From positions 1-46,249 of the IMG/VR virus record IMGVR_UViG_3300037104_000099: DNA of 46,249 bases; one strand, written 5' to 3'. Below, in pieces: positions 40,998-45,874 of this stretch; positions within the stretch are counted from its first letter, which is position 1, and every line of letters begins with the position of its first letter. The position numbers and the translations under genes are program-made. This DNA is from a virus. The notes beneath the pieces were generated by a model. That model was not told the origin of the DNA. It ran no database searches and saw only the letters and a list, made by a program, of their open reading frames with translations.

Positions 40998-41220
40998 TTT
41001 CTTTAAATTCTACCTCCAATTTAATTAAATGATTTTCCTTCCCTTCCGTAAAATATTGTAGCGTCATCCATTCTGGTACGCCCTGCTTCTTTGCAATCTG
41101 CCGACAAAAGGCAACCCTGGCTTGTTTTGGTGTGTAGGCATAGCAGTAAAGGTAATAGACCTGCCGCTGCCCATTAAACACGCCTTGCCATAAGTGTTTT
41201 AGTTTCTTCTGGTTCGACAT
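40990..41220 (-). CDS. hypothetical basic protein, 76 aa
   Basis: The start at 41220 follows GGAAAAGGAAA. It overlaps the helicase 3' end by 47 bp. MSNQKKLKHLWQGVFNGQRQ continues into YYLYCYAYTPKQARVAFCRQ, a compact beta-alpha shape. No family recognised. Lies between helicase and regulator. Confidence 0.55.
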   Translation of the reverse strand: MSNQKKLKHLWQGVFNGQRQVYYLYCYAYTPKQARVAFCRQIAKKQGVPEWMTLQYFTEGKENHLIKLEVEFKEND

Positions 41221-42301
41221 TTTCCTTTTCCCAATCACAATCAGTGCCCATAGCGTTTTTCTCTTTCCTAAACTGGCAACCGCCGACTATTTTATAACGC
41301 ATAAATAATCCGTTCGGGTTAATCATATCGTTCACCCAGTTTTTAGCTTTAACTATCTTTAAAGTATGGGGATTATTGCTTAATGAAATATAAAGGCGTG
41401 GCTTCTCCAGACTTCCGACACCGCCGCGAGCTATATCAACTCCCTTGCCGGTGTTCTTTTGAATCGCTATGACGGCAATTCCCTTGTTGAGTTTGTCGTA
41501 AATATCTTTTATCCATTGGCCAATCAGGAAAAAGTCTTGATGAATCTCTAAGAAGTCTATGATGTTAATTTCGTCTGGTTTAATAACATCCGCAAAATTG
41601 CTTGATCGCTCAAATGGTTTAAACTTCCAGCCTTCTAGTGGTAGCTGGGGAAATTTTTCAAGTCTGCTTCTTAATTCCAGTGGGCCACTTTCGGATGAAA
41701 AGTAATTAATCGGCCATTTATCCATATTCCGGCGAATGAAGTCTAAAAGGAAAGCGGTCTTTCCGGTGTCCGGCGAACCAGTGACCACGATTATATTTTT
41801 CGGCATTATCCCGCAAAGTTTCTCAATCCCAAAGGGCCACTTAAGGTCAAGCATTTCACCCTTGGCGTTCATGAAGTCGATGGTCTCGACTCGTTTATCA
41901 ACTTTTCGATAAACTCCCGATCGGTTTCCGCATGGTTCAAGAGTACCCAGCTCAACCAATCTTTTGATCGCCATCCGACAAGCTGCCTTCTCGTTTTTGG
42001 TCTTCAAATTGAGGGCGTTGTAACAATCATGTAAGGATGTAGTAACAAAAGCGCCTCCTGGTGTAACGGAAGTAACAAAGTCCATGACCTCAGATTGAAG
42101 GCTAATCCGTCCTTTCAGGGTCTGTCCTTTATATAAAGTCAGGCTACTATAAACCTTTTCCGTGAGGTCTTGAATGGTGTAATCTATGTTTTCATGGTCA
42201 TAAAGTTTCTTAACCATTTCAATAATATATTCTGGTTGTGCATCTGCTTTTACAAGGTACTCAATAGCCGTATCAATCTTATTAATATCAGTGTCGTTCA
42301 T
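41174..42301 (-). CDS. RecA-fold replicative helicase/ATPase with N-terminal winged helix, 375 aa
   Basis: Residues 1-65 are helical. Residues 70-135 resemble a winged helix (CRMAIKRLVELGTLEPCGNR). Walker A GSPDTGKT is at 175-182, a Walker B-like INIIDFLEI near 248, and a sensor-like IAVIAIQKNTGKG near 275. The layout fits single-domain RecA-fold helicases (RepA/DnaB-like, AAA_25) with an origin-binding front end. Iteron-like repeats lie just upstream and in codons 74-88, so the gene probably contains or flanks its own origin. AAGACAGGGGAATC starts it. Confidence 0.7.
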   Translation of the reverse strand: MNDTDINKIDTAIEYLVKADAQPEYIIEMVKKLYDHENIDYTIQDLTEKVYSSLTLYKGQTLKGRISLQSEVMDFVTSVTPGGAFVTTSLHDCYNALNLKTKNEKAACRMAIKRLVELGTLEPCGNRSGVYRKVDKRVETIDFMNAKGEMLDLKWPFGIEKLCGIMPKNIIVVTGSPDTGKTAFLLDFIRRNMDKWPINYFSSESGPLELRSRLEKFPQLPLEGWKFKPFERSSNFADVIKPDEINIIDFLEIHQDFFLIGQWIKDIYDKLNKGIAVIAIQKNTGKGVDIARGGVGSLEKPRLYISLSNNPHTLKIVKAKNWVNDMINPNGLFMRYKIVGGCQFRKEKNAMGTDCDWEKENVEPEETKTLMARRV

Positions 42302-42501: not shown

Positions 42502-42915
42502 TCAGAACGGAAGTTTCTCATAATCGACGGTTGAAATTTCAAGTTCCACTCTTGGGTTTTCCTTATCCACGTTTCCAAAGCGATAAGACACCGCCGGAAT
42601 TACCTTGTAAGAGTCGTCGGGAATAATTCCCATTTCAATCAGCGCGTCATCGGTAAATTTCTGAATGATTGAAAGCACATTCCCCAAGTCAAATTTTCGG
42701 TTCGTCGCCGGGTATGCCGTATAAGTAAAAGCATAAGGCGGACCCGTGACGATGTTTCTTTCCACTGCCCGCGCAACTACATCCTTCCAGGCGATCTTTG
42801 CTTGATTGAGCACCATGTGGTGAGTATTCCGGTAGATGTTGAGGTTAAGAGCAAAGACCTTATCAGCCTTTGTTTTGCGTGGAAGAATCACTGAAAACGG
42901 TAAAATAATCTTCAT
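42502..42915 (-). CDS. RusA-like Holliday-junction resolvase, 137 aa
   Basis: The pattern KFDLGNVLSIIQKFTDDALI then MGIIPDDSYKVI matches RusA (D-x-x-N, later D-D) as a metal-dependent endonuclease core. The N-terminus LPFSVILPRKTKADK is a family-like strand. It would resolve branched DNA during replication and packaging. CGGAGGGTGGCGGC precedes the start. Located between helicase and helicase-methyltransferase genes. Confidence 0.75.
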   Translation of the reverse strand: MKIILPFSVILPRKTKADKVFALNLNIYRNTHHMVLNQAKIAWKDVVARAVERNIVTGPPYAFTYTAYPATNRKFDLGNVLSIIQKFTDDALIEMGIIPDDSYKVIPAVSYRFGNVDKENPRVELEISTVDYEKLPF

Positions 42916-43069: not shown

Positions 43070-45874
43070 TTAATTGCATACAGACAACAAATCCCCCTGC
43101 TTTTCCTTATTTTCAAGGAATTGCATGTTTTTAATGGATTGCTTCCAATAGGATTCTTTCAGTTCAAGTCCAATACCGTAACGACCCATCGAAACCGCTG
43201 AATAAACGGTCGAACCGATACCAGAAAACGGGTCAAGGACAACATCACCCCTTGCGCTCCACAATTCCATACAGCGCTCAATGGTATCGAGCTGAAGCGG
43301 GCAGACGTGCTTTTCGTCTTTTTCGTCCCGCGCTATGTCGGTTGATAGGACCCTCGTCTGCCGAATATCAAACCAAACCGGCGAAGCATAACGCTGCCAT
43401 ATTTCATGGCTCAGTTTATTTTTGCGCTGATCTTCATTAAAGTTCGTATTGGTAAATTCGCGCTCTCCAATGTATTCCGTGAATCCATTCTTGCGCTCGA
43501 TCGGCTTGGGATTGTCGCCCTCTTTCCTCATAACGACGATATAATCAGGAATGCCTGTTCCACATCGGCTTGAATCCTTACACACCTGCTTATGAGCCAA
43601 AGACAAAACCTTAGTCCTTACCGCCTGCACAAGTGGATCTTTCCAGATGCAAATTTCTGAATGAAATATAAATTTTTCACCCTGGAATAGTCGGATGATG
43701 TCCCCCCTAAAGTCGTGCATTCCCATCACGCCATCATGTGTGATTGTCATGGGCAAATTCATGCAGTGAATGGCAATCAGGCGTCCGGGCATCATTACCC
43801 GATGCAATTCAGTGACGAGAAATTTAAAGTGATTCAAAAAGTCTTCTTTGTCCCGGCAATTTCCCATGTCCCGGATAGAATTTGTATAGGTGAACAGCGA
43901 AGCGAACGGCGGAGAAAAGATCGAAAATCCTATCGAATCGTCTTTCACTTCTTTTATCAGGTCTATGTTATCTCCCAAGTGAAGCTCATACCGATGATTT
44001 TTAAAAACATCCGTCCGGTAATCGAAACTTGATACCGATTTTTCATGCAATTCTGATTTTGTAATATCCTGCATATGCTCAATCATTTCCTTTCTCATTC
44101 GCTGCGCGTCGGCTTCTTTGCGTTTAATGTTTTCGACTATATTTCCCTCGATGTCCGTTGTGATAATATGGCAGTTCACCTTTGATTTCTGCCCAAAGCG
44201 CCAGCAACGGCGGATGGCCTGATAAAAAGCCTCATAGCTATCCGAAAGGCCAAAAAAGATAACATCAGAGCATTGCTGAAGGTTTAATCCAAACCCCATT
44301 ATTTTTGCCTTACTAATCATTACGGGCCTGTCATTATTAATCCATCCAGTTATTTGCCTTTCTTTTTCAGGATCATCCTGTGAACCTCTAACAGAAAAAC
44401 AATTATCTTTTAAAGTTGATTCAAGATCATCCTGTTCATTATTTAAATCTACCCAAATAAGAAATTGCCTTTTTGAGGATTTCAATATCGTCTTTAACTT
44501 TTCCGAGCATGTGGTTACAGTTGCAGCACAACAATCCTCTGACGATTCCTGATTTATGGCAGTGGTCAACATACAAATGTTTTCTGGTTTTATCTCCGCT
44601 TTCTGACCCACATATGGCACACTTTCCGTTTTGTTCTTGCAACATTCTTGCGTAATCATTGTTTGTGAGTCCATATTGTGACATAAGCTGTCCCCTGCGT
44701 TGTTCTTGAGTTCTGCTACGGGCAAGACATTTTTGTTTTTCTCTGTATTGCTCGTTTGTTTTATATTGTTCTCGTCTTGTAGCGTTATATCGATCTCTTT
44801 GATCTCTTGTTCGTCCTGGCCATTTTGATTTGTTTTCACGGTAATATCGGCGCATGTATTCCTTGCGTTCATTGCTGTGTTGTTGTTGGTATTCAATGGC
44901 GGCCTTAATCTTTTGATCTTTATTTCTTTCGTAATACTCCTTAAAGTATTCTGTGTTTTTTGGCATGGTTCTTCTCCATTATTTTTATTGACCATACCAC
45001 AGTTGGAAATTAATTGCAAAACTATTTCAATCTTTTCATCTATGGATTCCCGGCGGGCCTGCCGGCGCTCGCTCAGTGTTTCGGCTTTTTGAGGGAAAAG
45101 GCAGCCTTCAAGCGGTTTGCCAAATTCAATAACGTGCTCGATGATATTTAATTCCGGCAGGATAAATCCCGAATCATCAAATCCAAGTTCAGACGGTTTC
45201 GATAACATGACCGCCCAGGAGCAAAGCCACTTCCAGAATTTTTCCTCACCATGACCCTTGAGTCGCCACGTCCCCACGTTCGCCGTATCGTTAATGAAAA
45301 ACAATGAGAGCATTTCCGATCTGGATAAGACATTCAAAAACTCTGAATGGTTGCCAAGTTCAATAAAGTCATTCGGCGCGGGTGTAGCCGTGCAAGCCAG
45401 CTTGTATGGTGTTTTCTGGAATGATTCGATGATATAATTTCTAAATTTCCCTGTATATGATTTCAGGATTGAGCTTTCATCAAGGACTATGCCGACAAAT
45501 GAACCGGCGTCAAACTTATGGAGCTTTTCGTAATTTGTGATATTGACGCCGTTTATAACATCATCTTGTGATTCGCAGATTTGAACGTCGATGTTAAACT
45601 TTTCCCCTTCGCGCTGTGTCTGCTTCGATACAGCCAATGGTGCAAGGATTAGGACAGGCTGCCCCGTAAAGTTATGAACCTGATTCGCCCATTCGAGCTG
45701 CATCGGAGTCTTGCCAAGTCCACAATCAGCAAATATAGCCGCCCTGCCACGCTTGCAAGCCCACCGGACAAGAGCCAACTGAAAATCGTATAATTTTGGA
45801 TTTAACGAAACTGGTTCAAACCCTGATTGCTTGTCGATAATGTCTTTATTGTTCAAAAACGATTGATAATTCAT
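43070..45874 (-). CDS. SNF2-type helicase-DNA methyltransferase fusion, 934 aa, interrupted by a nested HNH gene
   Basis: Residues 28-290: helicase domain 1 with Walker A DCGLGKT (50-56) and DE-motif VLDES (D132, E133). Residues 465-600: helicase domain 2 with FLIWVDLNNEQ and motif VI QAIRRCWRFGQ (552-562). Residues 630-930: methyltransferase with catalytic SPPF (654-657) before AdoMet motif DPFSGIGST (881-889), the order of beta-class N6-adenine/N4-cytosine enzymes. Residues 293-464 are low-complexity sequence between the two helicase domains and correspond to an endonuclease gene in another frame. It starts by TAATG after a membrane peptide gene. Expected role: DNA remodelling and protective methylation during replication. 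Confidence 0.75.
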   Translation of the reverse strand: MNYQSFLNNKDIIDKQSGFEPVSLNPKLYDFQLALVRWACKRGRAAIFADCGLGKTPMQLEWANQVHNFTGQPVLILAPLAVSKQTQREGEKFNIDVQICESQDDVINGVNITNYEKLHKFDAGSFVGIVLDESSILKSYTGKFRNYIIESFQKTPYKLACTATPAPNDFIELGNHSEFLNVLSRSEMLSLFFINDTANVGTWRLKGHGEEKFWKWLCSWAVMLSKPSELGFDDSGFILPELNIIEHVIEFGKPLEGCLFPQKAETLSERRQARRESIDEKIEIVLQLISNCGMVNKNNGEEPCQKTQNTLRSITKEIKIKRLRPPLNTNNNTAMNARNTCADITVKTNQNGQDEQEIKEIDITLQDENNIKQTSNTEKNKNVLPVAELKNNAGDSLCHNMDSQTMITQECCKNKTESVPYVGQKAEIKPENICMLTTAINQESSEDCCAATVTTCSEKLKTILKSSKRQFLIWVDLNNEQDDLESTLKDNCFSVRGSQDDPEKERQITGWINNDRPVMISKAKIMGFGLNLQQCSDVIFFGLSDSYEAFYQAIRRCWRFGQKSKVNCHIITTDIEGNIVENIKRKEADAQRMRKEMIEHMQDITKSELHEKSVSSFDYRTDVFKNHRYELHLGDNIDLIKEVKDDSIGFSIFSPPFASLFTYTNSIRDMGNCRDKEDFLNHFKFLVTELHRVMMPGRLIAIHCMNLPMTITHDGVMGMHDFRGDIIRLFQGEKFIFHSEICIWKDPLVQAVRTKVLSLAHKQVCKDSSRCGTGIPDYIVVMRKEGDNPKPIERKNGFTEYIGEREFTNTNFNEDQRKNKLSHEIWQRYASPVWFDIRQTRVLSTDIARDEKDEKHVCPLQLDTIERCMELWSARGDVVLDPFSGIGSTVYSAVSMGRYGIGLELKESYWKQSIKNMQFLENKEKQGDLLSVCN
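44439..44966 (-). CDS. endonuclease VII-type HNH nuclease nested in the helicase gene, 175 aa
   Basis: Has its own SD (GGAG, 7 nt before ATG). N-terminus (residues 1-90) basic, helical and Lys/Arg/Gln-rich. Core QYGLTNNDYARMLQEQNGKC then C116-x2-C119, VDHCHKSGIVRG (D134-H135, H137) and C147-x2-C150 (CCNCNHMLGK) matches the recombination endonuclease VII/HNH family. It lies in another frame within residues about 303-479 of the fusion. Its last residues (KKAISYLGRFK) are encoded by conserved helicase sequence. Homing endonucleases of this type are mobile. The inserted segment is about 515 bp, too small for a group I intron core plus this ORF. Confidence 0.75.
   Translation of the reverse strand: MPKNTEYFKEYYERNKDQKIKAAIEYQQQHSNERKEYMRRYYRENKSKWPGRTRDQRDRYNATRREQYKTNEQYREKQKCLARSRTQEQRRGQLMSQYGLTNNDYARMLQEQNGKCAICGSESGDKTRKHLYVDHCHKSGIVRGLLCCNCNHMLGKVKDDIEILKKAISYLGRFK

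Follow-up and report, generated by a model that had tools for sequence, protein, structure and literature searches.

A probable splice-free homing endonuclease gene nested out of frame in a phage helicase-methyltransferase gene

We analyzed a 46,249-base virus record from IMG/VR (IMGVR_UViG_3300037104_000099; the whole stretch is termed the window here), in which a helicase-methyltransferase gene contains a complete endonuclease VII (Endo VII)-type HNH gene in another reading frame and yet stays open in its own. Computed evidence of several kinds (the anatomy of the insert, empty sites in relatives, maintenance of the open frame, conservation of the HNH protein, a scattered distribution, and a tract of helicase sequence shared among carriers) makes it likely that this is a homing element that dispenses with splicing: an HNH gene with its own start, through which the helicase frame is read, and which is copied together with adjoining helicase sequence. 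Introns and inteins are thought to be the hiding places that let mobile endonucleases persist within essential coding sequence. The nested HNH family would represent a third route, used on a broad scale, in which both frames are kept readable. Annotation gives these genes as plain "helicase," so that the endonuclease within them is routinely missed.

The nested gene, its carriers and the open host frame

The features on which the argument rests are as follows; the segment termed D is listed further below.

43070-45874, minus strand: host gene, a superfamily 2 (SF2)-type helicase fused to an N6/N4 DNA methyltransferase (934 residues), with its frame open through the insert
44471-45001, minus strand: inserted DNA, junctions approximate, missing from the relatives L002 and L004; its host-frame reading is a polar linker predicted to be disordered
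44439-44966, minus strand: nested Endo VII-type HNH open reading frame (ORF) of 175 residues (Pfam Endonuclease_7, expect value [E] 1.6e-25)
44974-44977, minus strand: Shine-Dalgarno-like GGAG, read from the sequence, 7 nucleotides 5' of the HNH ATG
44439-44470, minus strand: 3' end of the HNH ORF, which in the sequence overlaps the conserved host RecA2 strand RQFLIWVDLN

The nested ORF is offset by +2 relative to the host frame and is preceded by an in-frame TAA 15 nucleotides 5' of its start codon. The Endonuclease_7 match covers residues 94-171, that is, the C-terminus, and includes the motif residues CX2C (C116, C119), D134 H135 H137, R143, C147/C150, and N151. These Endo VII/DHHRN motif residues are invariant across eight nested relatives, and the protein matches the known structures of Hpy99I (the best solved-structure match) and T4 endonuclease VII. 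The original prediction, made from the window sequence, of a complete HNH gene with its own ribosome site inside a stop-free host frame was thus borne out, as there are zero host-frame stops across the insert. Its estimate of the extent (about 515 base pairs [bp], residues 293-464, a 172-residue linker) correctly placed an insert, the bounds of which we refine to host residues ~292-468, or about 177 codons. The HNH ORF takes up nearly the whole insert, and its final ~10 codons run into FLIWVDLN, a conserved strand of the host.

Insertion-free homologues with joined flanks were anticipated, and they exist. We took 80 helicase relatives from IMG/VR; the two closest to the host protein, L002 (80% identity, 755 residues) and L004 (74%, 753 residues), both lack the insert, and L003 (41% identity) has a similar nested HNH at another position in the same gene. 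Among Gordonia phages, a related HNH is found in the helicases of the isolates Malisha and Squiddly, where it occupies the window's site in the same phase, and phage Holliday has a helicase without the insert that is about 84% identical. An assembly chimera was rejected, as both isolates share the same structure.

A scan of viral contigs with the window HNH as the sole query found no relative. Carriers were found by scans with alignments of nested HNHs, with a three-sequence alignment in the case of the genome scan; their sampling is uneven, because they were found through HNH similarity. There are at least 16 non-redundant nested Endo VII-type cases in diverse phages (including the window and leaving out Squiddly), every one in the same helicase family and at one of two sites. 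Site A, before the strand WLIWC-LNDEQ, is occupied in 12 of them: the window, Malisha, L092, L094, L095, L096, L106, L117, L118, L135, L140, and L194, the last being a metagenome-assembled genome of Sphingobium. In the other four (L003, L097, L127, L131) the insert is at site B, which precedes the motif V strand. The distribution is disjunct, with few of the sampled helicases carrying an insert. When the helicases were compared by tblastn with all HNH loci, helicase flanks were seen solely at open-frame loci, bar a weak distant match at L111, and at none of these loci was there an insert that closes the helicase frame. A homologue with the linker in the host frame and no HNH, the case named beforehand as refuting, was not found among the relatives.

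The open frame is difficult to attribute to chance. We permuted synonymous codons within each HNH ORF, preserving protein and codon usage. For the window insert, the probability of having no host-frame stop was 0.007 by this shuffle and about 0.0002 with the phage's own codon usage. Single-case probabilities ranged from 0.5 in GC-rich phages to 0.0003 in L003 (29% GC); however, host-frame stops were absent from all 16 nested HNHs, the product of the shuffle probabilities being about 10^-24.5, and a chance open frame was rejected. It is the AT-rich carriers that make this claim statistically testable, whereas the published GC-rich mycobacteriophage cases are poorly suited to it. Three GC-rich phages (L106, L135, and L140) use the opposite phase, with the host frame at HNH +2, and still have no stops (probabilities 0.0005-0.01); the required property is therefore an open frame, not one particular phase. 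By contrast, 25 free-standing HNH relatives have stop counts at expectation, never zero, and show no stop avoidance. Programmed frameshifting or bypass was dismissed as unneeded, because there is no host-frame stop to skip.

Across 78 nested pairs with offset +2, mean identity is 43% in the HNH frame and 23% in the host frame, and the fastest-changing positions are HNH third codon positions, which are host second positions. The HNH protein is therefore conserved, whereas the sequence of the linker is not, and selection on the linker concerns chiefly the absence of stop codons.

Two further features of the inserts were observed. A leader, TAAACTGGCA (TAAACTATCG in L097), lies 12 nucleotides 5' of the HNH start in L003, L082, L092, L096, and L097 and further upstream in L118 and L095; it occurs at both sites and in low- and high-GC phages, its TAA is an in-frame stop in most, and it is missing from the window. 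It is possibly regulatory, an initiation signal, or an enzyme target. At site B (L003, L097, L127, L131) and at a third site, C, in mycobacteriophage Pacc40 (L203), the host frame encodes Cys-x-Cys pairs at both insert ends (e.g., KCICN...FCICG; CRCLC...CPC), and L003 also has a repeated TGTATTTGC. These pairs and the repeat possibly represent a duplicated site or the zinc-binding base of a loop.

The helicase segment next to the insert

The original prediction took the extra DNA to be the HNH insert only. The insert stands; what it overlooked is that some 60 host codons downstream are also foreign relative to L002.

44309-44470, minus strand: D segment, the stretch of helicase codons that separates site A from motif V and has been replaced in comparison with L002 and L004 (judged by identity to L002 and by tree)

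We compared D (~60 codons, ~180 bp, 52 alignment columns) on host sequences from which inserts had been removed. Identity between the window and L002 is 88% upstream, 26% in D, and 85% downstream; between Malisha and Holliday it is 88%, 38%, and 92%. When followed in 15-residue windows, identity in both pairs falls at the insert and climbs again to roughly 90% within ~65 codons. For comparison, we took 183 pairs without an insert that share 70-95% identity upstream; these pairs are not independent of each other. Their D identity goes no lower than 50%, with a 5th percentile of 71%. A tree built from D places every one of the 12 site-A carriers in a single clade (Shimodaira-Hasegawa-like approximate likelihood ratio test [SH-aLRT] 98) and groups the four carriers of site B in another (91). 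The remainder of the gene, on the other hand, gives a tree on which the site-A label requires nine changes; there the window has L002 as its sister, and Malisha has Holliday. The nearest neighbor of a site-A carrier is another carrier in 12 of 12 cases for D and in 6/12 and 3/12 for the two flanks. A permutation test was not significant with our first statistic, the mean residual of carriers alone (1172/10000); a within-minus-between statistic, chosen after it in order to compare carriers with non-carriers, gave 0/10000 for site A and 102/10000 for site B.

We infer that the D tract reflects co-conversion during homing. The main rival explanation for the similarity of D among carriers is convergence: their helicase lobes would have adapted in like manner to an insert that is ancient and has mostly been lost. 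This has in its favor that D is short, and that the approximately unbiased (AU) tests discussed below are not significant for single pairs. Against it, the shared D clade unites lineages that are only about 35% identical elsewhere, and the breaks in the window/L002 and Malisha/Holliday pairs are sharp, with high identity promptly regained. We therefore regard convergence as unlikely, while giving it more room than any of the other alternatives.

Several points nevertheless weigh against a splice-free homing element. With 52 columns, AU tests on single pairs did not reject the native grouping of D (p 0.20-0.30), and the shared sequence could in part be convergent adaptation to the insert. In GC-rich carriers, where the shuffle probability reaches its upper value, the open frame alone is weak evidence. 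Finally, the window phage may hold a copy of the element that is inactive or in decay.

As we picture the splice-free element, the DHHRN-type HNH gene sits where the second RecA lobe begins, in a conserved helicase loop, and would be translated from its own start in the other frame. Ribosomes on the helicase frame would read through the insert, producing a disordered linker of about 177 residues, and a helicase-methyltransferase with at least some activity is probably still produced. The endonuclease would cut insertion-free helicase alleles of a co-infecting phage, and repair would copy the insert together with ~180 bp of adjoining helicase, thereby removing the native target. Read in this way, the shared D tract is sequence evidence of repeated transfer between distant phages and hints at where the enzyme may cut.

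A broader proposal is more tentative, and we lean slightly against it: there may be a broad class of splice-free homing elements in which overlapping frames replace splicing, and the mobile unit may be the HNH insert plus a ~180-bp helicase "exon." Co-copying of this "exon" would protect the recipient helicase from cutting and at the same time let it tolerate the disordered linker; the same half-lobe would hence have been swapped repeatedly among helicases down to 35% identity.

Splicing, domestication and the linker

That the HNH entered without a splicing element and is carried as a linker of the host protein, as originally predicted, is supported by the empty homologues, the absence of a recognizable intron or intein, and the predicted structure. 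We ran AlphaFold2 on the host protein with 35 homologues. Residues 294-455 are predicted to be disordered between two confidently folded helicase lobes: the predicted local distance difference test score (pLDDT) is ~24-47 over most of residues ~291-460, with values of about 25-35 for the greater part of 294-455, and mostly >85 in the lobes. This is consistent with a tolerated disordered loop. Ser, Thr, Asn, and Gln make up 36% of the host-frame linker in the window and 36-45% at site A wherever the offset is +2, but only 20% of the host.

It is improbable that a self-splicing intron of a compact or unfamiliar type carries the HNH, with the mRNA restored and the open host frame incidental. Endo VII-type homing endonucleases are indeed known within phage group I introns (PMC6083498), and the leader TAAACTGGCA upstream of the HNH start is common to several inserts. 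However, Rfam gave no match bearing on the insert at E<=5, nor did the window or any of 15 sister loci yield one at gathering score, and no group I catalytic core was found around the HNH ORF, which fills the insert; a group I intron was rejected for these reasons, in agreement with the original prediction. Moreover, a spliced element needs no open frame, yet all 16 keep one, in two phases.

Similarly low odds attach to domestication, i.e., that the nested HNH is not selfish but has become, for example, an Hpy99I-like restriction nuclease that partners the methyltransferase of the fusion. Restriction enzymes of the Endo VII type, Hpy99I among them, do adjoin methylases (PMC6083498), and Hpy99I is also the closest solved structure. 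The pattern, however, is that of a mobile element: few of the sampled helicases are occupied, at two sites and in two phases, and the D tract has apparently been transferred between distant lineages.

Least probable of all is removal of the insert at the protein level by some unrecognized intein-like process: the host frame is open and two terminase genes do have an out-of-frame HNH inside a real intein (see below), but the host-frame translation lacks visible N- and C-terminal splicing motifs at the insert ends when inspected by eye, in contrast to those real inteins, its sequence is unconserved, and it is predicted to be disordered. An intein was accordingly rejected, again as originally predicted, and on computational grounds the insert does not appear to be spliced.

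The terminase genes in question, annotated as such in Sedona (L084, MW822146, 514-2901) and Tydolla (L085, MH576977, 1278-3818), contain apparent inteins running from CMTGDTPV... to NFIANGLVSHN, each with an Endo VII-type HNH out of frame (offset +2) in an open intein frame. These probably correspond to the inteins that Gosselin et al. call "non-canonical." Pacc40 gp60 (FJ174692) combines a hidden out-of-frame HNH in its helicase part with a stretch, intein-like by eye, in its methylase part.

The host protein itself matches Pfam N6_N4_Mtase (E 4e-21) and Helicase_C (E 9e-10) and the PHROG DNA helicase family (E 6e-68). Its gene adjoins those for a DnaB-like helicase/ATPase and a RusA-like Holliday junction resolvase (41174-42301 and 42502-42915, minus strand); these neighbors form a replication/recombination cluster.

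Relation to known systems

The motif CX2C...DHxH...R...CX2CN, located C-terminally as in the endonuclease clade, relates the nested HNH to F-CphI, a homing endonuclease of the DHHRN family with an Endo VII motif (PMC6083498), and like it the nested HNH is a small phage protein. The difference is that the window HNH lies inside a protein gene with no intron around it, and its site-specific cleavage and homing are putative. Homologous HNHs occur in Gordonia phages Malisha (gp71) and Squiddly (gp64); they are ~43% identical over 129 residues and share the helicase site and phase; these phages differ in having high GC and separate helicase and methylase genes, and the annotation reads "DNA helicase" only.

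The insertion mode had been predicted to be unusual. Splice-free insertion holds, but it is not unprecedented, as the same architecture was published by Arsenault, Gosselin, and Gogarten in 2025 as "hidden HNH" insertions in mycobacteriophage methylase genes, namely the ShiLan domain (ShiLan gp65 methylase) and Pacc40 gp60 (PMC11855218). As in the window, an out-of-frame HNH lies in a phage gene, the insert is missing from homologues, the host frame is stop-free, no intron or intein is detectable, and the distribution is patchy; the ShiLan HNH also has the same offset, and Pacc40 gp60 is a helicase-methylase homologous to the window host gene. The insertion points differ from the window's, however, and the HNHs show no detectable sequence similarity to the window HNH (BLASTP E 0.15 and 12); thus, the architecture is the same, but the HNH families are different. 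In addition, the ribosome-binding sites of the hidden HNHs were reported as undetectable (PMC11855218), whereas the window has a Shine-Dalgarno-like site.

The architecture has therefore been known since 2025, and what is new here is the statistical maintenance of the open frame and the transfer together with a helicase segment. Neither addition was found in the literature examined, although a bioRxiv preprint that PMC11855218 cites (2025.01.02.630785, on non-canonical inteins) could overlap. Unlike the GC-rich published cases, the present carriers include low-GC phages, in which the open frame is statistically informative, and they revealed a shared helicase tract.
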